Positions 6,085 to 35,820 of a DNA stretch of 36,052 bases are shown here, one piece after another; the stretch's first letter is position 1; each line of letters starts with the position of its first letter. A program made the position numbers and the translations under genes. The DNA lies in NCBI GenBank assembly GCA_004299085.1, contig SCQV01000341.1, positions 1 through 36,052 of the forward strand, given 5' to 3'. Below the pieces are notes generated by a model. That model saw only the letters and a program-made list of their open reading frames with translations, was not told the origin of the DNA and ran no database searches. Origin of the DNA: Chitinophagaceae bacterium. GTDB lineage: Bacteria; Bacteroidota; Bacteroidia; Chitinophagales; Chitinophagaceae.

Positions 6085-6173
6085 GACGATAAGTTTAATA
6101 GTAAATAAATATTGCCTACTCTGTTCTACAGGTTTTCGGTTACTCCTGTTTTTGTGCGCACAAAATATTTTTA

Positions 6174-12050: not shown

Positions 12051-12506
12051 ATGGAACATTTATTAGCACGGAAATTATACGACTATCTCTGTCGTAACAG
12101 TCCAGATATAATCCTTCGGCTGGATGATAAAGGAATGAACGAGTTTATCCGTTCAAAGATAGAAAATGCCCTTCCGCTGTTAGAAAATCTGCTCGTACAA
12201 AATTGTCCGGCTTTTATTATAGAAGAACTCTGCATGGATCAGATGACGGAAGATTTAAAGCCCTCCAAATATCATTATATCGTAAAAATCCTTGAAGAAG
12301 AATTTGAGGAGAAATATAACGGATTCAAAGAAACGGGACTGCTGACTTATGAGATAACAAACATGATAGACCGTTGCAAGGAAGTTTTTGAAAAATTCCG
12401 GTTTTCTGTTTTAACAGAAGAAGACAGGCAGCTTTACTATGCAGTTACCGGTATTATAGGAGCATATTTTGAAGAACCTTTAAACACCGGAGTACATGGC
12501 TTATAA
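12051..12506 (+). CDS. DUF1896-like cytoplasmic protein
   Basis: This is a 151-residue acidic helical protein with no signal or membrane segment. Its pattern ([32 protein letters not shown], a central [13 protein letters not shown]) fits the DUF1896 family. That family is found almost only in Bacteroidetes conjugative elements, usually just upstream of a large methylase-helicase. Its last 11 bases overlap the start of that methylase-helicase gene here, so the two are translationally coupled and probably act together. The biochemical function is unknown. Confidence 0.6.
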
Positions 12507-15500
12507 TCCCCTTCAAAAACTCCGGGATAATACCACCGCTATCCGAATTGCCCTCCTGCACAGGGATGGGAAACAGATGGAGGAGGATGATATAGCCCTG
12601 CTCAAACGTTATAGCGGCTTTGGTGGAATTAAAGCCATTCTCTATCCAGACGGTGACCTCTCGACTTGGAAGGAAGACAATGCATCAGAGAGTGACCTGA
12701 AACTATATGAGCCGGTAATGGAACTCCATGAGTTACTCAAAGATAATTTTAATCCGGAAGACTACAAGCGTATTATTCATTCCCTCAAAAACAGTACGCT
12801 CACTGCTTTTTATACACCTGCTATTATACCCCGAACGATTTACGAAACTTTAAAAGACAATGGTATTCACCCTCGGAGTCTGTACGAGCCATCCGCAGGA
12901 GCGGGTGTTTTTATCTCGGAAGCGGTCAAGGCATTTCCCGAAATTAAAAACATTACTGCTGTTGAAAAGGATGAGCTTACCGGACTGGTGCTTACTGCTA
13001 TAGGTAGCGTAAATCCTCAACAAACACAAACTTATATTTCTGCTTTTGAAGATGCTCCAACAAAGGATAACGCTGGGTATGATTTGATTGTAAGTAATAT
13101 TCCTTTTGGTAATTTTCTGGTATATGACGAAGCCTTTAGTGATAAATCGCTTACAGGAAAAATACATAATTACTTTTTTGCCAAAGGGTTGAATAAACTT
13201 AGTGGTGGAGGACTGCTAGCTTATATTACCACCGATGCATTTTTGAACAGCCCTTCCAATAAAACGGCCAGGGAATATCTTTTCCAAAAAGCTCATTTTG
13301 TGAGTGTGACGGTATTACCCGATAATCTCATGAAAGACACCGGTAATACGGAAGCGCCCAGCCACCTTTTAATCGTACAAAAAAATGAAGAAAAAAAGGC
13401 TCTTTTAGGAGAAGAAAGACTACTCATAAATACTTCCCTGAAGGAAAATGAATTTGGCCCCTTTTACGAAAACACCTTTCTCACTCATCATCCGGAATTA
13501 ACCGCCGGTGATGAAGTGCGGCCAGGGAAGAATCAATACGGGCAGTCACATACTACGGTATGGCAATCGGGTTCACCAGATGATATGGCCCGAAGGCTTT
13601 CACAAATTCTAAACTATGACTTTAGCCGTCGTCTGGATAAAGAAAAATTTCAAAAAATAGCTATCGCGCCTGCAAAGGGAATTTCTACTCCATTAAAGCA
13701 ACTGACTTTTTTACCGGTTCCTGAAAATAAAACCGGTGGCGCCGTCATTCAATTAGACTTATTCGACGCCGGTTTCTTGGAAAATATCAATCGTGGCAGA
13801 GCTTATATCAATAGCTTAGATACATCAGTTGTTTACAGCGATACCGCCCGTATCATCAGCACCATTAGCACCAAAGAAAATCCTTCTCACGAAAGCATCG
13901 TGCTGGTTACTGCCAAAGCAAAAACCGGTAACCGGTTTCTTTATAAGCTGTGTTCCAATGTGGCTGAGATAAAGCCTTCTTCTAACTGGATGAATGCACT
14001 CTTACTACAAGAAGAACTAAAGGCGCTTTCTGTAAAGCTAAGAGACTATGACCATAGTTACCGGTATGAAGGAGAGGGTGACCTGGAGCCTTTATTCTCG
14101 TTGGTAAGGAAAGAAGATGCAGACAAAATAAAAATCACTCAGCCGCATTATAAACCCGGAACGCTTGTCATAAAAGACGGCCAGGCAGGTATTATCAGTG
14201 ACATAGATGAGCTCAAACAGCAGGCTACCTTCAAACTTCTTTCCATACCTGTAAACGACCTTGCTTTTTACAAACAGTATATAACGCTGAGAGATACCTA
14301 TTTTAAACTCTTTGAAGCAGAGAAGACTGGAGAGATGACTAAGGATTTAAGGCAGAAGCTCAATCTAGAATATGACGCTTTTACCGGTAAGTATGGTCAA
14401 TTAAACGGGCGTGTAAACAAACTAAAAATCTACAATGACAGTGCACATGGTGCAACTATCCTTTACTCCTTAGAGCGAAGGGATGGTAATAGTTTCCAAA
14501 AATCAGACATCTTCAAAAAACCTTTATTAAATGAGGTGCAAAGTTTTTCAACGGATGATCCGGTGGAAGCACTGGCTATGAGCCTGAACAGGACAGGAAA
14601 GGTTGACATGGCTTTCATAGGGAAGATAACCGGAAAAGAAGAAAAAGAAATTATGCAGGCGCTCAGGGGAAAGATACTCTTAAATCCCTTAAATGATGAA
14701 TGGGAAACGGCGGATAAATTTTTGGCAGGCAACGTGGTAACCATGCTTTCGGTTTCAACTGAAAAAGCAGCAGCTAACCAGGACAACGCCTTCTACAAGC
14801 AAAGTGTGGAAGCACTGCGACAGGTGCAACCGGAAAAAATACCTTTTGAATTATTGGATTTTAACTTGGGAGAACGCTGGATACCGGTTAACTATTATAG
14901 CCGCTTTGCTGCTGCACTATTTGAACAGGAGGTGGAAGTAAGCTATTTCCGTTCATTAGATACGTTTAAAGTTTCTCTCAATTATAGAAATGCAAAAGTT
15001 ACTGAAGAATATGCCGTCAGGACAAAAAACGGCAGCACGACTTATGGAAATATTTTGTTAGAGCATGCACTGGAAAATACCAGTCCCTTTTTTACTTATG
15101 AAGTGGAAGGCCTGGACGGTAAAACCATCCGTGTTCCTGATAATGAAGCCATTCAACTGGCCCATCAAAAGATTGAAGGTATCCGAAGCTACTTCTTGGA
15201 ATGGTTACGTGAGCTTGGACAGGAAGATAAACAGGAATTAGAAAAACTTTATAATTATACGTACAACTGCTATGTGCTTCGGGAATACGATGGCAGCCAT
15301 CTCACCTTTCCTGACTTGGATAGAAAAGCCCTGGGTATCGAAGACTTATACGATTCTCAAAAAAATGCCGCCTGGCGTATCATTCAAAACAGGGGTGCTA
15401 TCATTGACCACGAAGTGGGCCTTGGAAAAACGCTCACCATGATAGTGGCTGCCCACGAGACGAAACGGTTAGGCGCCATCCACAAGCCTGCTATCCTGGC

Positions 15501-18033
15501 GCTGAAAGCCAATGTCACTGAAGTAGCAGCCACTTACCGGAAGGCCTATCCTAGAGCACGTGTTCTCGCTCCGGGAGAAAATGATTTTAGTCCTGCCAAA
15601 AGACTGCGGCTCTTCCATGAGATTAAAAATAATCATTGGGATTGCGTCATCATGACCCATGACCAGTTTGGAAAAATCCCACAGGATCCGGAAATAGAGC
15701 GGCAAATTTTTGAGGTAGAATTAGACAATCTTGAAAAAGACCTGCACACCCTGGAAGAAATGGGCGGCACTGTTTCCAGAAGCATGAGGAAAGGGCTTGA
15801 AATAAGAAAAAATAACCTCAAAGTAAAGCTACTCTCAGTACTTAACCGTATTGAAAACCGTAAGGATAGTGACATCTGTTTTACTGACCTGGGAATAGAT
15901 CATCTCTTTATTGATGAAGCGCACAAATTTAAAAATCTCGGCTTTACCACCCGCCATGACCGGGTTGCAGGGCTGGGTAATATGCAGGGCAGCCAGAAAG
16001 CGCTCAATATGCTTTTTGCTATCCGTACCCTGCAACAAAAATTTGATTCGGATCTCTGTGTTACTTTTCTTTCAGGTACCCCTATTTCCAACAGCCTGAC
16101 AGAGATGTATTTGCTGTTTAAATATTTGCGTCCGAAAGAATTAGAACGCCAAAATATTGAAAACTTCGATGCCTGGGCAGCCGTATTCGCCCGGAAGACC
16201 ACGGATTTTGAATTTTCCGTTACTGGGGAAATTATGGCAAAAGAAAGATTCCGTCATTTTATCAAAGTACCTGAACTGGCGCTGTTCTATAATGAGATAG
16301 CAGACTATAAAACAGCTAAACATATTCGGCTGGACAAGCCCAAACTCCAGGAAATTTTAGTAAACCTTAAGCCAACGCCAGAGCAAAGCGACTTTATAGA
16401 GAGGCTGATGCAATTTGCTAAAACAGGCGATGGGGGGCTCATTGGCAGAGCGCAGCTAAGCAGGGAAGAAGATAAAGGACGCATGCTCATCGCGACTAAC
16501 TATGCTAAAAAGATGGCTACTGATATGCGGCTGATTAATCCTTTGATGTATGGAGACCACCCAGATAACAAAGTTAGCGCCTGTGCCCGCAAAGTAGCAG
16601 AACTCTATCAGGAAAGTCTTGAACATAAAGGAACACAAATCATCTTTAGCGACATCGGTACGCCCAAACCCGGTTCCTTTAATCTTTATGATGCACTAAA
16701 AAATAAGTTAATACAGGATTTTAAAATACCTGCAGGAGAGATTACGTTCATCCATGACTGGACGCAGAAGAAAAAACCGGAACTATTCCGTAAGATGAAT
16801 ACCGGTGAAATCCGGATTCTTATAGGCAGTACTGATAAAGCCGGGACCGGACTAAATGTACAGGAGAGAGTGATTGCCATGCATCATCTGGATATTCCCT
16901 GGAAACCGACCGAATTAGAGCAGCGTAATGGCCGCGGCGCAAGGCAAGGTAATGTGGTAGCCAAAAAATTCTATCACAACCAGGTGCTCAATTTTATCTA
17001 CGCTACAGAACAATCACTGGATAATTACAAGTTTAATCTCTTAAAGAACAAACAAACTTTTATCAGCCAGATGAAAAACTGTGAGCTGAATGTCAGGACG
17101 ATTGATGAAGGTGCATTAGATGAAAAGAGCGGCATGAGCTTTTCAGAATATATCGCTATCCTCTCAGGCGACACCACGCTGCTGGAAAAGGCAAAGCTGG
17201 AAAAGAAAATAGCCGTACTGGAAGGACTTAAACGAAGCCACCTCAAAGAAACGGCTCGCTCCCGTTCACACTTAGAAAGCCTGCAAATAGAACTTGAAAA
17301 ATCTCTATTGGTTTTAGACAGGCTTTTGGCAGATACCAAAGATTATGAAGGGAACCTAAAGTATGAACCGGACGGTACAAAAGCAAATCCTATTCGTTTA
17401 TCAGGCCTTCAAAGTTTAGACACAGAAGCTATCGGGCTGTACCTGATTCAACTATTTAAAAATTGGAAGCCATCAGGAAATAAAGAGGAAGAAAAGATAG
17501 GAAACCTGTATGGGTTTGACCTTTTTATAAGGCGCAAACAGGAAACACTTTTGGTGGAAGGACAATTCAGGTACCATGAGTATAACAGCTTCTATGCCAG
17601 CAAAGGTTTAGACGGTATCAAATATACCTGGAACCAGGGTTATCCAAACATAGATAATCCCAAAGTAACCGCCCGCCATTTTTTAAACGCCATTGACCGC
17701 TCCGGTAAAATGAAAGTGCAATATGAAGAGCGTATAGCCGGGATGAAAAAAGATATTTTGGTTATTGAAAAATCGTTGCAAAAACCCTTCACGGAAGCAG
17801 ATACTTTAAGTAATCTGAGAGCAGAGGTAACCAGGTTGGAAAGAGAGATCACCCTGAAAATAAAGGAGAACCAAATGGAACAAGCGGATAGTCCTAAAGA
17901 AAATGTAGGAATGGAAATAGAAGCAGCGGTAAAAAAAGCGGCTATGATGGAAGAAAGGCTGACACCGGTATATCACCGGGCTCCCCGGATTCGCTTGGCG
18001 CCGGCAATAGCAGGTAACAAACTAAAAAGATAG
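12496..18033 (+). CDS. Giant fused N6-adenine-type methylase and SNF2-type helicase
   Basis: This 1845-residue protein combines a DNA-methylase-like domain with a superfamily 2 helicase. The methylase part (about residues 60-320) has SAM-binding motif I at EPSAGAGVF (from Glu131) and a motif IV-like VSNIPFG (about 199-205), a variant of NPPF. The helicase part has Walker A GLGKT (975-979), DEAH (1140-1143), motif [12 protein letters not shown], and motif [11 protein letters not shown] (1478-1486). A coiled-coil region rich in Lys and Glu follows at about 1545-1640. Relatives are found in Bacteroidetes conjugative elements and recall DarB-type antirestriction proteins, so it may protect incoming DNA or remodel it (inference). 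It sits between traE and traF, which is not the usual place. Confidence 0.9.
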
Positions 18034-29686: not shown

Positions 29687-29718
29687 CAAAGTTAATCCTC
29701 CGGCTTCAGGGCGTCCAA
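29687..29718 (-). promoter_or_regulatory. Promoter of the FRG gene
   Basis: The minus strand has TTG at 29718-29716 and TAACTTTG at 29694-29687, an exact TAnnTTTG box with 21-bp spacing. The start codon at 29646 lies about 40 bp downstream. The -33 element and spacer lie inside the left arm of an inverted repeat. Confidence 0.65.
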
Positions 29719-29799
29719 GAGCTTCCCGCATAAACGCATGGCAGCCACACAAGGCCATCTTTTATTCGTTTGCCTCTTGGACTTGCTTGCCGCAGGATT
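29694..29799. repeat. Inverted repeat between divergent FRG and RadC genes
   Basis: Left arm 29694-29721 and right arm 29774-29799 share, in inverted orientation, AATCCTsCGGC (11 bp, one mismatch) and GTCCAAGAG (9 bp, perfect), separated by 8 and 6 unpaired bases. Inside are further short stems: AAACG/CGTTT and ATGGC/GCCAT. The left arm carries the FRG -33 region; the right arm is its mirror facing RadC. Confidence 0.8.
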
Positions 29800-29846: not shown

Positions 29847-30311
29847 ATGGAAACGTCAAAAAACATCTTTTGGGAAGTATCCGAAGTGGAATTAGTTTAC
29901 AAATCCCGGATCAAAGCGGCAGATCGCCCGAAAGTAAACACTTCAGCAAAAGCTTATGAAATATTCCTGCATACCTGGAATAAGGATAAAATTGAATTAT
30001 TGGAACAATTTAAAATCTTATTACTGGATAGAGCCGGTAAAGTTTTAGGTATTTGTGAAATATCAACCGGCGGAATAAGCAGCACTATCGTGGATCCTAA
30101 ACTGATATTTGTCACGGCCCTCAAAGCGCACGCCAGTTCCCTGATCCTTTGTCATAATCATCCGAGCGGAAATTTAAAGCCCAGTGAGGAGGATATTTCA
30201 TTAACAAAAAAGCTGGAACAGGCGGGAACATTTTTAGATATACCTGTCCTTGAGCATCTGATTATCTCACTCGAAGGATACTATTCTTTCACTGATGAAG
30301 GGCTGCTTTAG
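29847..30311 (+). CDS. RadC-like JAB-domain protein
   Basis: This is a 154-residue single-domain member of the RadC/JAB family common on mobile elements. The metal site is complete: His103 and His105 in CHNHPSG, then Ser113 and Asp116 with the exact JAMM spacing H-x-H-x7-S-x2-D. It lacks the N-terminal helix-hairpin-helix region of chromosomal RadC. The reaction is unknown; some members are suspected hydrolases or nucleases. It starts about 48 bp after the right arm of the inverted repeat and is followed by the first hairpin element (30330-30434). Confidence 0.9.
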   Translation: METSKNIFWEVSEVELVYKSRIKAADRPKVNTSAKAYEIFLHTWNKDKIELLEQFKILLLDRAGKVLGICEISTGGISSTIVDPKLIFVTALKAHASSLILCHNHPSGNLKPSEEDISLTKKLEQAGTFLDIPVLEHLIISLEGYYSFTDEGLL

Positions 30312-30329: not shown

Positions 30330-30434
30330 AGCAGGCAATCATTTTCCTTCGTCAATCATTGCCTGCTCTCCCAAACATTTTTAAATACCACTCCGCCACC
30401 CGAAAATCTCCGTTCCTCCGATTTACCGATGGCA
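30330..30434. repeat. Two-hairpin element, copy A
   Basis: Hairpin 1 is GCAGGCAAT (30331-30339) with ATTGCCTGC (30358-30366), closed by an extra A-T pair, with an 18-nt loop. Hairpin 2 is AAATC (30404-30408) with GATTT (30420-30424) and the loop TCCGTTCCTCC. The 37-nt linker between them differs from copy B, whereas the loops and spacing do not. It may also serve as the RadC terminator, but it lacks a T-run directly after hairpin 1. It lies between the RadC-like gene and the broken DUF1016 gene. Confidence 0.85.
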
Positions 30435-30456
30435 AACACTAAAAATCTTAGAGGTA

Positions 30457-31594
30457 TTATCCTTTCTTTAATTTTTGCTGTTCTTCAGAAATTATTTTCT
30501 TTAATTCCTGCTCACTAGGTAAGCTCACCATATACTTGGAAACAAAGACCTTTTGTGGCAATCCGGATGTGGCATATTTAACCAAAGCATTATTCTTTCC
30601 GGCACATAAAATAATACCCACCGGAGGGTTATCATTACCTTGCATTTCATTATCCATATAGTAATTCAGATACACATTCATTTGTCCTGCATCGGCATGA
30701 GAAAACTCACCAATCTTTATCCACCAGTACATGACATTTTAATATCCTGTGATAAAATACAAGGTCAATACGATAATGCTTATTATCGAATGTTATTCGC
30801 CTCTGCCTTGCTTCAAAACAAAAGCCACGTCCCGGTTCCAATAGGAAGAACTGAAGATGATTAATAATTGCTTCTTCCAGATCACTTTCAGAATAATAGG
30901 GTTTTTCCTCCAAGCCTAAAAATTCCAACATATAAGGGTTACGGAAGATATCTTCAGCTTCTATGGATACATCACCTTTATTTTCATCCATCACCTTATT
31001 TTTATCCTTGCTTAACCCGGTTCTTTCAAAAAGCATGGTATTCATGGCACGTTGCAAATCTCGCACAGACCAGTTGTTTTTAAGCGTTTGCACTTCATAA
31101 AAGGAACGTTTTAATGCCGTATCTGCTTTAAGCAGTTCAATAAAATGCGAAAAGCTTAAATTATTCAGTAATTGCTCATAATCAACACCGTTGGTATCGG
31201 GCGGTATGGAATCGGGTTTGGAGGCAGAAGATTTTGCGGACGCTGTTGGCAATCTTATAATTGGCCTAAATTCGGATAAATATGATTTTGCGGACAGTGT
31301 CCGCAAAATGTCCGGGTAAGTATTGTAAAGGTCCTTACAGATATATAAATACCGTTCTCTTATAGACTTTATTCCTTTTGCCTTGAGCCGCAACGTGATT
31401 TCTTTATAAAGTCTTTCTCCGTAATTGGCACGATCCGTCCCATTTTGTTCATATTCAACTATATAATAACCAATCATCCAGTTTCTTAATGTAAGTGCAA
31501 TGTTGACCTGCCGCTTCACCTGGTGTAGAAAGAAGTGGTTTGTTTCTGCAATAGTAGTTGCTAACAACGCTATACTGTTTAATCCCTCTGGCAT
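30457..31594 (-). pseudogene. DUF1016 (YhcG-like) PDDEXK nuclease, frameshifted
   Basis: Two overlapping minus-strand frames form one family member. The N-terminal part begins at the ATG at 31594 (MPEGLNSIALL) and includes the DUF1016 N-terminal helical domain and then the nuclease core up to RIDLVFYH. The C-terminal part continues IKIGEFSHADAGQMNVYLNYY and ends near 30457. At about 30718 the frame breaks inside what should be VDLKIGEF: only one base lies between the GAT and AAG codons, so two bases seem lost. The break hits the catalytic D/E-x-K motif. It could be a true inactivation or a sequencing error; no classic slippery heptamer is seen. Confidence 0.75.
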
Positions 31595-31716
31595 ATACAA
31601 AAAATAATTAAAACGCAATTAAATTGAGAAGATGCAAGATAGCAAAAAACTTACCCCTGATTAAGGATTATAAGATACTCGTATATAAAAACTTTAACTT
31701 TTTTTACCCTTCTATG

Positions 31717-31821
31717 AGCGGGCAATCATTTTCCTTCGTCCATCATTGCCCGCTTCTCTTTAATGATTGAAAATCTTTTCTGCCATCAGAAAAGCTCCGT
31801 TCCTCCGCTTTACAGATGGCA
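31717..31821. repeat. Two-hairpin element, copy B
   Basis: This copy is offset from copy A by exactly 1387 bp with no gap across 94 nt. Hairpin 1 is GCGGGCAAT (31718-31726) with ATTGCCCGC (31745-31753). Hairpin 2 is AAAGC (31791-31795) with GCTTT (31807-31811) and the identical 11-nt loop. Below hairpin 2 is a 7-bp stem, TGCCATC (31781-31787) with GATGGCA (31815-31821). It lies between the DUF1016 gene and the palindrome upstream of ssb. Confidence 0.85.
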
Positions 31822-31873: not shown

Positions 31874-32063
31874 TTCGGCTCGCCGGGTCGGCAAAGGTAT
31901 TTCCCTCACAAGGCAAACCCAAATTGTGACAGAGTTTGCTTCAAAAAAAATCTCCACCCCGCCGTATTCCGTGTCATAAAATAGGGTGGCGGGGTCGTAT
32001 TTTTTTTGGCAAAATTTGGGTTTGCCCCCACGCTGCATTTTTGTTGCCTATCGGCGAGCCGAA
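31874..32063. repeat. 190-bp nested palindrome upstream of ssb
   Basis: Five perfect pairs of arms nest in order: TTCGGCTCGCCG (31874-31885) with 32052-32063; GGCAA (31890-31894) with TTGCC (32044-32048); GGCAAACCCAAATT (31912-31925) with 32013-32026; CAAAAAAAAT (31942-31951) with 31999-32008; and ACCCCGCC (31956-31963) with 31988-31995. The apex is 31964-31987. It fills most of the 31822-32087 gap and ends 52 bp before the ssb start. No protein is convincing here. Confidence 0.9.
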
Positions 32064-32104: not shown

Positions 32105-32115
32105 ACTTTAATGTG

Positions 32116-32493
32116 ATGGAAATTACCGGAAGACTGACCGCAAATGCACAGGTCACAGAAATCAAAGACGGGCGTAAGGTCGTCAATTTTGATGTAGCCG
32201 TCAATGACTACTACAAAACCAAAACAGGGGAAGCAAAAACGGTTACAGCATTTTATCGTTGTGCTTATTGGATTAGCCCTCATGTAGCCAGGCTGCTTAC
32301 CAAAGGAACGCTTGTAAGCCTGTACGGAAGAACAGGAGTAGAGGCTTACATGGGTAAGGATGGAGAGCCAAGAGCCTCGCTTAAATTTCATACCTCCCAA
32401 ATCAAAATCCTGTCCTCAGCACACAATCAGGAGAATAGTAATATTCCTGAACCTGAGAGGCAAGAAAACAACACAGTCAACCTGCCATTTTAA
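32116..32493 (+). CDS. ssb: Single-stranded DNA-binding protein
   Basis: This 125-residue SSB coats single-stranded DNA during conjugative transfer and replication of the element. The OB-fold covers about residues 1-100 (MEITGRLTANAQVTEIKDGRKVVNFDVAVND, FYRCAYWISPHVARLLTKGTLVSLYGR). A short linker leads to the C-terminal tip NLPF, a weaker version of the DDLPF-type protein-interaction tail. The ATG at 32116 is used; a GTG one codon earlier is less likely. It is preceded by the large palindrome and the 17-bp leader. Confidence 0.95.
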   Translation: MEITGRLTANAQVTEIKDGRKVVNFDVAVNDYYKTKTGEAKTVTAFYRCAYWISPHVARLLTKGTLVSLYGRTGVEAYMGKDGEPRASLKFHTSQIKILSSAHNQENSNIPEPERQENNTVNLPF

Positions 32494-32532: not shown

Positions 32533-33585
32533 ATGTCACACAACATTTTTTTTAACGAGCAAACAGGCAAATACAGCTTCTTTTCCGTGAAAGAAAAAGC
32601 CTGGCACGGTTTAGGTCAAATCGTGGAAGATTACCCCACCAGTGCAGAAGCAATTAAACATGCGGGACTGGATTACCAGGTAGAAAAACGTAACCTTATA
32701 ACCGACAGTGTAAATGAGAAAGAGGACGGCATTATTTTACCTGAATTAAAAGTCCCTGATTATTTCGCTACCGTCCGTAGCGATACCCAAGCTGTATTAG
32801 GTGTAGTGGGTAAAGATTATCAAATTGTACAAAACAAGGATGCGTTTTCTTTCTTTGATGCTATTGTAGGCGGTGAGGAAGGTATTTTGTATGAAACCGC
32901 AGGAGCTTTGGGCAAAGGAGAACGTATTTTTATAACCGCTAAGCTCCCCGGCTACATCAACGTGGGCAGTAGCGACCTGATAGAAAAATACCTTTTCCTG
33001 ACCACCTCGCACGATGGTAGCGGCAGTATTATGGCTGCCTTTACACCTATACGCATAGTATGCAATAATACGCTTACGGCTGCCTTGCGCCATTGTTCCA
33101 ATGCAATCAAAATACGCCATACCTCTAATGCCAAAGAAAGGCTGGAGCAGGCGCATAAGGTGATGGGTATTTCAAACAGGCTATCTACAGAACTTGAGGG
33201 CATTTTCAATCAATGGGCAAAGGTTTCTATACAGGATAATGAAGTAAGGAAACTCATACAGTCAGCCATGACACCAAGCAAGGAAGTATGGAAGAAAATA
33301 CAGGAGGGAAACGAAGAAAATCTTTCCGCTGCTTTTAAAAACACCTGTGAAGAGGTATTTGCTTATGGCATGCTGAATGAAACCCAACAGATGGCTACCA
33401 CTAAAGGTACTTTATTCGGTGCTTTTAATGCCATAACCGGCTATTTTCAAAACGTCAGGAATTATAAAGATGATGAAGCCAAAGTGAAATCCCTCCTATT
33501 GGGTGGCACAGGAGCGTTACGTACTCAAAAGGCTTTTAACCTCTGCCTCGATTTTTCAACGCATGGTGCAGGAGCCTTGAATTAA
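32533..33585 (+). CDS. DUF932 (phage/plasmid-like) protein
   Basis: This is a 350-residue soluble protein of the phage/plasmid-like family often described as DUF932. The family hallmark KAWHGLGQIV lies near the start (about residues 22-31). It continues with YFATVRSDTQAVLGVVGKDYQIVQN, FTPIRIVCNNTLTAALR and a C-terminal YGMLNETQQMATTKGTLFGAFNAITGYFQN. The function is not established; it is recurrent in leading regions of plasmids and elements next to ssb. It is followed by a GC-rich terminator. Confidence 0.9.
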   Translation: MSHNIFFNEQTGKYSFFSVKEKAWHGLGQIVEDYPTSAEAIKHAGLDYQVEKRNLITDSVNEKEDGIILPELKVPDYFATVRSDTQAVLGVVGKDYQIVQNKDAFSFFDAIVGGEEGILYETAGALGKGERIFITAKLPGYINVGSSDLIEKYLFLTTSHDGSGSIMAAFTPIRIVCNNTLTAALRHCSNAIKIRHTSNAKERLEQAHKVMGISNRLSTELEGIFNQWAKVSIQDNEVRKLIQSAMTPSKEVWKKIQEGNEENLSAAFKNTCEEVFAYGMLNETQQMATTKGTLFGAFNAITGYFQNVRNYKDDEAKVKSLLLGGTGALRTQKAFNLCLDFSTHGAGALN

Positions 33586-34104: not shown

Positions 34105-34254
34105 TTGCACCGGACACTCAATCCTCCTCTGTCGGAATCAGTGTCCAGCGTTTAAGGGGTGCAACCCTTTATCCAAAATTTGCCTCATCGCACGATTAGC
34201 CGGATGAATTTTAGATAAAAGGTTGTGGAGTTGTTTGGTGTTTAAAACCAAACA
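34105..34254. repeat. Multi-hairpin intergenic region before the integrase
   Basis: This is the main content of the 34057-34375 gap. A first hairpin has TTGCACC/GGTGCAA (34105-34111 with 34158-34164) enclosing GGACACT/AGTGTCC (34112-34118 with 34140-34146). A second has 18-bp arms at 34163-34180 and 34207-34224 with two mismatches. A third is TGTTTGGT/ACCAAACA (34232-34239 with 34247-34254). The rest of the gap, to 34375, is AT-rich with nothing obvious. Candidates are an origin of transfer, a structured RNA, or a recombination accessory region. Confidence 0.75.
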
Positions 34255-34375: not shown

Positions 34376-35626
34376 TTAATAATTAAAATCGGAATGCTCT
34401 TTCTTTTGTCTTTGCTTTTCAGCCAAAACAACCTTCAGTTTATTCATATCCCTGCTGACTTTTTTTGCCAGTACTTTAGCGTAAATTTGAGTGGTCGTGA
34501 TTTTTGTATGCCCAAGCATTTTACTTAATGTTTCTATAGGCACATCATTTGCCAGTGTGATAGAAGTCGAAAATGTATGCCTTGCAATGGAGAAGGAGAG
34601 GGGAATTTTTATATCACAGAACTCTGCTATCAATTTCAGCTTATCATTGATTGTTTTGTTGGAAATATAAGGGAAAAGTGTGCCGGTTGCTATTGCTTGT
34701 GGATTATCTTTATATTTTTCAACCAATTCCAATGCTTGTGGCAATAAAGGCACTAAGACCGGATTCGTGTTTTTTTCGCGGCTCGTTTTTAACCATAATT
34801 CCCTATCAAACCCTGTTACAATTTCTTCTCTTTTCAATTTAATCGCATCTCCATAATGTGGGCCTGTATAACAACTAAATACAAATAAATCCCTGGCTAG
34901 CTGTAATGAAGGATTATTAAAGTGTGCATTTTCTATCCTTAATAATTCTTCTTCTGACAAGAAAGCTCTTTCCACCTTGTCAAATTTTAGTTTAAATAGT
35001 TCGAATGGATTTTTCTTGCACCATTCCATTGTAACAGCTAGCCTTCCTACTTTTCGGAGGCGCTCCATGTGCTTCATTACGCCGTTATTGTTGCAGGGCT
35101 TTTTGGCGTCAATGGGATGTGATAGGATAAACTGTTTTAACTCTAATAGAAATTCATAGCTCAATTCAGAAAGAAACATGTCCTTTCTTTTTTTAAAGCT
35201 AAGGAAGTTCTTAACATACGTTTCCGTAGTGAAATAATTTTTTAAAGTTCCCTTCTTTAATCCGCTGTTTTTATTATGATAAGTCATGAGTTGACAAATA
35301 GTATTGTTCTCATGGTCTATACCAAGAAATTTGTTCTTGAGTATTTCAGGGCTAACTGGTATATTTTGTAACCTCATTTCATCATAATATGACAAAATCT
35401 TACTTTTTACCCGATCAAGATATAATTGGAACGATTGTACTTGCGGGTTTTTAATTCGTTTGTCGAACGTTTCTGTCCACAATTCTGTATTAACCCGGCG
35501 CTTAAGTGAAAAATCTGAACTTTCTGCATTCACAGTAATACGACAATACAAGGGCACTTTGCCTTGTTGTTCTCTTCCACTTTTTACAAAAAATGATACT
35601 CCGAAGGTTGGGATAGTTGATTCCAT
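34376..35626 (-). CDS. int: Tyrosine recombinase (integrase), IntDOT-like
   Basis: This enzyme integrates and excises the element. The N-terminal arm-binding region is FFVKSGREQQGKVPLYCRIT, followed by a SAM-like core-binding domain. The catalytic domain holds ARHTFS and LGHTKITTTQIYAK with the nucleophile Tyr. The first catalytic arginine, usually TGLRY, is His257 here (TGPHYGD). CTnDOT integrase also lacks that Arg. The start at 35626 gives 416 residues; an earlier ATG at 35680 lies inside an 11-bp palindrome and adds residues unlike the family. Confidence 0.9.
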   Translation of the reverse strand: MESTIPTFGVSFFVKSGREQQGKVPLYCRITVNAESSDFSLKRRVNTELWTETFDKRIKNPQVQSFQLYLDRVKSKILSYYDEMRLQNIPVSPEILKNKFLGIDHENNTICQLMTYHNKNSGLKKGTLKNYFTTETYVKNFLSFKKRKDMFLSELSYEFLLELKQFILSHPIDAKKPCNNNGVMKHMERLRKVGRLAVTMEWCKKNPFELFKLKFDKVERAFLSEEELLRIENAHFNNPSLQLARDLFVFSCYTGPHYGDAIKLKREEIVTGFDRELWLKTSREKNTNPVLVPLLPQALELVEKYKDNPQAIATGTLFPYISNKTINDKLKLIAEFCDIKIPLSFSIARHTFSTSITLANDVPIETLSKMLGHTKITTTQIYAKVLAKKVSRDMNKLKVVLAEKQRQKKEHSDFNY

Positions 35627-35669
35627 ACTATTATTTTTTTGAATATTAAATTGGGTTCCTCTGATCGGT

Positions 35670-35820
35670 CCGTAGTCCATTGTTAAAATGGACTACGGAG
35701 GTACGCTAAAAACAACTCAAAAAAGCCCAAATTCAATCAAAATTTATCAACACAACTAATTGATAAACAATTAGATGAATGTTGACCGTAGTCCACAAAG
35801 AAAGGACATTTTAGTGTACC
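35670..35820. repeat. Inverted-repeat cluster upstream of the integrase
   Basis: CCGTAGTCCAT (35670-35680) and ATGGACTACGG (35688-35698) form a perfect 11-bp palindrome. CCGTAGTCCA recurs at 35786-35795. GGTACGCTAAAA (35700-35711) recurs inverted with one change at 35809-35820. Between them TTTATCAA/TTGATAAA and CTAATTG/CAATTAG give alternative hairpins. Likely roles are integrase or excisionase arm sites, or the int operator. Confidence 0.7.

Follow-up and report, generated by a model that had tools for sequence, protein, structure and literature searches.

The closest described counterparts of the element reported here come from F-like plasmids and from a Bacillus ICE. Frpo promoters, one of which lies immediately upstream of ssb, have been sought elsewhere by the letters TTGACA and TATAAT (PMC11541004), while sso1 of ICEBs1 comprises three predicted stem-loops and functions in one orientation only (PMC4595007). 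Our element resembles the Frpo/ssi sites of F-like plasmids (PMC11541004) in being hairpin DNA of a conjugative element, close to ssb, repeated and expected on the entering single strand. However, it has two hairpins where Frpo/ssi has one, shows no recognised −35/−10 letters, belongs to an ICE of the Bacteroidota and has an activity that is predicted only. With sso1 of ICEBs1 (PMC4595007) it shares the presence of several stem-loops in an ICE, and its strand bias suggests an orientation-specific action on single-stranded DNA, whereas ICEBs1 is a Bacillus element, sso1 has three stem-loops and no relation in sequence is claimed. The open-access literature yielded no description of such single-strand sites in Bacteroidota, which does not disprove that one exists.

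The window, as we call the whole stretch of 36,052 nt that was analysed, holds a CTnDOT-type ICE with RteC, DUF4134, DUF4133, the TraG ATPase, TraJ and TraM. The tra genes are followed by RadC, DUF1016, SSB, DUF932 and a tyrosine integrase, and no relaxase was found in the window. Two side observations concern the remainder of the ICE: the tra operon has, at 12496-18033 between the genes for DUF1896 and DUF4133, a gene for a protein of 1845 aa that combines an Eco57I-type methylase with an SNF2 helicase domain, and positions 6113-6149 (minus strand) match the Rfam DUF805b cis-regulatory RNA. The features relevant to the element are:

29713-29782, no strand assigned: hairpin before radC, the window's slightly divergent example of a phylum-wide hairpin with the tip CGGCATAAA..TTTATTCCG
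29847-30311, plus strand: radC-like gene (RadC JAB domain)
30330-30434, minus strand: copy 1 of the two-hairpin element (hairpin 1 30330-30367, linker 30368-30393, hairpin 2 30394-30434)
30457-31618, minus strand: DUF1016/YhcG PDDEXK nuclease gene between the copies, frameshifted into ORFs of 303 and 91 aa
31717-31821, minus strand: copy 2 of the element (hairpin 1 31717-31754, linker 31755-31780, hairpin 2 31781-31821)
31874-32063, no strand assigned: long nested hairpin between copy 2 and ssb (DNA z −7.0)
32113-32493, plus strand: ssb gene
32533-33585, plus strand: DUF932 gene, used as query for related ICEs
34109-34225, minus strand: probable divergent third member in the same ICE (10-pair hairpin 34109-34149 with a related loop, 19-pair hairpin 34162-34225)
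34376-35680, minus strand: tyrosine integrase gene

The two copies stand where the original prediction had placed them, in direct orientation at an offset of 1387. Their alignment is gapless as claimed but extends over 105 nt instead of 94, with 25 differences (24%), and weak homology continues for about 17-20 nt beyond the right end. Hairpin 1 has 10 pairs. In hairpin 2, two 1x1 mismatches with one pair between them set the inner stem (AAAGC/GCTTT) apart from an outer helix (GCCATC/GATGGC); the outer helix had been overlooked earlier and counted into a linker of 37 nt, which is in fact 26 nt long and, as predicted, strongly diverged (16 of 26 positions). The other differences fall in the stem of hairpin 1 (2), its 18-nt loop (1) and hairpin 2 (6). 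The 11-nt loop of hairpin 2, TCCGTTCCTCC, is identical in both copies, and the predicted retention of the loops amounts to a single change over 29 positions. Copy 1 begins 19 nt past the radC stop. In its own genome the element has these 2 copies by blast and by covariance model, both within the present ICE, unlike a REP- or MITE-type dispersed repeat with many scattered copies.

On either strand, copies 1 and 2 outfold each of 200 dinucleotide shuffles (RNA z −3.3 to −4.5; DNA z −4.0 to −4.7). The two compensatory pairs of the original prediction are correct, an A-T to G-C change in hairpin 1 and a T-A to G-C change in hairpin 2. When the six stem changes were placed at random in a simulation, 0.17 double changes from one Watson–Crick pair to another were expected, against 2 observed (P = 0.006). 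The element matches no Rfam family and could not be assigned to a known structured RNA. A terminator was rejected as well, no T run following either hairpin and the one terminator-like match (31794-31775) not being kept in copy 1, and reading the element as protein gave weak, chance-level matches only.

Outside the window, a third, partly decayed copy lies in G030, the only other genome of the same genus searched. A covariance model built from copies 1 and 2 gave no other convincing match in overlapping samples of 396 order, 394 family and 198 phylum genomes. Among the hits of 16-35 bits in the order, those at L015, L017 and L019 lie inside protein-coding genes and the other weak ones were discarded on score. 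Neither a blast search of plasmids and phages nor exact-pattern scans of viral contigs returned the element, and an exact-pattern scan of GTDB genomes gave only the G030 contig and one Oscillospiraceae match. The element thus appears confined to one genus, as far as searched, and is old enough for its copies to have diverged by 24%. The G030 copy is 81% identical over the matched part and stands without an adjoining ICE gene or DUF1016 gene. Since only the element and 38 nt of right flank, that of copy 2, match the window, it looks like a partly decayed relic; the left arm of the long hairpin at 31874-32063 is still linked to the element there. Its stems carry three G·U changes and two that break pairs, so that non-compensatory changes in a homologue, which would speak against selection on structure, do occur, but in a copy that is relic-like.

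Within the ICE, the covariance model run with filters off over the last 8 kb of the window gave a full-length minus-strand match at 34109-34220 with no broken pair (13.3 bits, E 0.038), higher-scoring opposite-strand self-hits of the palindromic copies being excluded. The 10-pair and 19-pair hairpins of this locus contain two G·T pairs each, pair fully on the minus strand only and fold better on that strand (DNA z −4.1 versus −1.9 on the plus strand). The loop GATTCCGACAGAGGAGGATTG aligns with GATTGACGAAGGAAAATG at P = 0.004 in composition shuffles, but only at 0.2 with fixed ends. When the loop comparison was applied to the 1296 ten-pair hairpins of 2.3 Mb (both strands), only two apart from the known copies scored 19, one of them at this locus. 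A single background case in 2.3 Mb would translate into roughly 0.01 such hairpins in the 8 kb. We consider 34109-34225 a probable further member of the element.

The stems differ in how they pair on the two strands. At element pairs 65-105 and 70-100, the one-sided changes between the copies leave C·A on the plus strand and G·U on the minus strand. Copy 1 shows two C·A mismatches on its plus strand and the G030 copy three A·C, and all five are G·U on the minus strand. Together with the probable third member, pairing-neutral one-sided stem changes run 9:0 for minus-strand G·U, or 7:0 if the two end wobbles of the 10-pair hairpin are left out, a tally of nine events of which four come from that member, over three certain copies and one probable. 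The folding of one strand that is looked for in sso/ssi sites is thus seen in 9/9 wobbles, albeit in a small sample. Because every one-sided change that keeps pairing is a minus-strand G·U, the minus strand is the one that folds, and the copies were assigned to it from this tally. The certain copies and the probable member all have the same orientation even though the adjacent genes point both ways. The structural selection proposed originally is supported by the covariation, by loops conserved beside a diverged linker and by minus-strand pairing maintained in the further copies.

We thus observe a covarying structure with a minus-strand pairing bias, repeated on the same strand of an ICE. Our preferred reading, which we advance tentatively and at somewhat less than even confidence, is that the element is an initiation or promoter-type site (Frpo/ssi/sso-like) which works strand-specifically on single-stranded DNA. 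It is favoured by the pairing on one strand, the single orientation, the clustering near ssb in an ICE and the lack of an Rfam match, and also by the large hairpins that precede ssb and radC in related ICEs. Such an element would act on the single-stranded DNA of conjugative transfer or rolling-circle replication. Once the minus strand, presumably the transferred one, is single, the two hairpins would fold and expose the purine-rich loops GGAGGAACGGA and GATnGACGAAGGAAAATG. These could be bound by a polymerase, a primase or a protein encoded by the ICE, in any case a priming or transcription protein, which would start RNA at the element, as a primer or as an early transcript. The Frpo-like setting is present in that the DNA hairpins lie in a conjugative element near ssb, in what relatives suggest to be its leading region. 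On the other hand, copy 1 now faces DUF1016 antisense and as a promoter would serve no gene. No sigma-70-like site overlaps the copies or lies just upstream of them on the minus strand, although Bacteroidota promoters differ from that consensus.

The same promoter search bears on the main rival, which we consider unlikely, namely that each copy gives rise to a structured minus-strand RNA of about 110 nt whose two purine-rich loops bind a protein or C/U-rich targets. The original prediction had named RNA and single-strand DNA side by side, and they are not fully separable, the strand bias and the leading-region-like setting favouring either of them. Indeed, RNA would account for the minus-strand G·U bias no less well than DNA. 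Both copies lie on the sense strand of DUF1016, copy 2 ending 99 nt ahead of its start and copy 1 beginning 23 nt past its stop, so that the mRNA of this gene could have copy 2 as its 5′ leader and copy 1 as its 3′ end. However, neither the G030 copy nor the probable third member is linked to a DUF1016 gene, and the element is missing at DUF1016 genes elsewhere; neither the missing sigma-70-like promoter upstream nor the missing Rfam match speaks for a transcript.

Rather improbable is an old duplicated palindrome of no present function, the stems of which would seem compensated since palindromes tend to be corrected. The restriction to one genus and the two broken pairs of the G030 copy are in agreement with it, and with DUF1016 frameshifted and no mob genes in the window the ICE may be decaying. 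Against this, the loops are kept far better than the linker (1/29 versus 16/26 changed), and correction of palindromes does not predict wobbles on one strand only.

The element could also be a recognition site for a relaxase or MobC, an oriT or oriT-like site, with two sites flanking DUF1016 and a third near the integrase; this we find improbable. A good candidate for the oriT of such ICEs is a hairpin with TCCRRAGTCG, which stands shortly before mobC in most of the mob regions checked (L174-L192), two of the own genome included. The element resembles these hairpins in loop length and in its place after radC, copy 1 following the radC stop by 19 nt and several relatives having their candidate oriT between radC and mobC. 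Moreover, the oriT candidates (TCCRRAGTC) share TCCnnnGTC with two loops, that of hairpin 1 (TCCTTCGTC on the plus strand) and that at 34115 (TCCTCTGTC). However, the element differs from them in core letters, in its reversed hairpin order and in gene neighbourhood. The oriT core CACTCCGnAGTCGT is not above chance level in the window, nowhere does a copy adjoin mobC, and in the own genome both mob regions carry oriT candidates of the ordinary kind; the element was accordingly rejected as the oriT of related ICEs.

Slightly less probable still is a recombination or cassette boundary, at which DUF1016 was inserted and between whose copies it can be lost or exchanged. The unit between copies would be the gene plus one copy (1387 nt), and long direct repeats sometimes flank DUF1016 genes elsewhere; however, a divergence of 24% is too high for a recent exchange, and the element has no relation to the repeats of L092, L093, L096 and L098, those at L092, L093 and L098 being at least partly duplicated coding sequence. 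The swap of genes between copies that had been suggested originally is not supported either, since neither the own genome nor the family and phylum samples gave a second locus whose copies enclose another gene, DUF1016 homologues elsewhere share no flanking sequence with the window and lack the element, and the G030 copy has no DUF1016. The latter two points indicate that DUF1016 probably arrived later, separating copies 1 and 2. An integron array was dismissed, as only DUF1016 lies between the copies, no other array was found and no attC-type site was recognised. At L096, three 124-nt palindromic repeats (27-149, 1253-1377, 2255-2379) surround DUF1016 and a second gene, a layout like that of an integron array. 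The frameshift of DUF1016 (30707-30732) falls in the nuclease domain, while homologues mostly have 335-406 aa in one frame, and may be an assembly error or real decay. The gene also contains the palindrome TTTTGCGGACACTGTCCGCAAAAT (31283-31309), and most of the DUF1016 homologues examined have a similar short self-palindrome.

Returning to the single-strand site that we favour, related ICEs give an idea of where it would lie during transfer. A close DUF932 gene was found in 50/195 family genomes. One related ICE (L071) has, on one strand, ssb, DUF932, radC, about 314 nt, MobC, relaxase and T4CP, with an integrase at the end, and its candidate oriT lies between the radC-ssb-DUF932 block and the mob genes. 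In F-like plasmids the relaxase genes usually enter last. If transfer starts at the candidate oriT and the relaxase genes enter last here as well, the ssb-DUF932-radC block would be the leading region and its template strand, the minus strand in the window, would enter first.

This block is also the site of the phylum-wide hairpins, which are nested, with variable stems around the fixed tip CGGCATAAA..TTTATTCCG. They precede ssb and radC in related ICEs (L025-L075; L106-L172), at about 100-140 nt from the ssb start in most cases and farther away in a few, and at about 60-80 nt from the radC start. The tip pattern occurs in 59/395 genomes of the phylum, whereas a reversed control gave roughly one third of that number; it is also present in IMG/VR contigs. 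Half of eight sequences have A-T in place of C-G at one stem pair. In a stricter count of internal wobbles, 14 favour the template strand and 4 the other, but a looser count shows no strand bias, so that the support for such a bias is weak. These hairpins are possibly single-strand promoters or priming sites. The long hairpin before ssb in the window (about 190 nt) has TATTCCG and CATAAA in its loop, the tip letters in reversed order. In two IMG/VR contigs (L139:6005-7159 and L164:2591-3355) near-identical phylum-wide hairpins stand in tandem, and those of L164 each precede their own gene, giving a hairpin-gene-hairpin layout as in the two-copy element.

The element and the phylum-wide hairpins occupy the same block of the same kind of ICE and have variable stems and conserved inner letters. 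However, the element has two consecutive hairpins, and the fixed tip is absent from both copies, which places it outside the family. With some of the phylum-wide arms it shares only TCCGTTCCTCC, a match that 6.5% of shuffles reach. It may nevertheless do similar work. It is conceivable, though we hold it to be somewhat unlikely, that Bacteroidota ICEs carry beside oriT a class of DNA hairpins of their own that are active as single strands, be it as promoters or as priming sites, with a phylum-wide form and lineage-specific forms such as the two-hairpin element. The published Frpo search would miss such sites since it used E. coli promoter letters (PMC11541004).

In the literature searched we found no description of how incoming single-stranded DNA is primed, or how first genes are expressed, in Bacteroidota ICEs. 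In this context, a strand-biased structured site near ssb offers a small and concrete target for the study of single-stranded DNA priming in these elements, and its setting draws attention to a hairpin that is far commoner and precedes ssb and radC in ICEs across the phylum.
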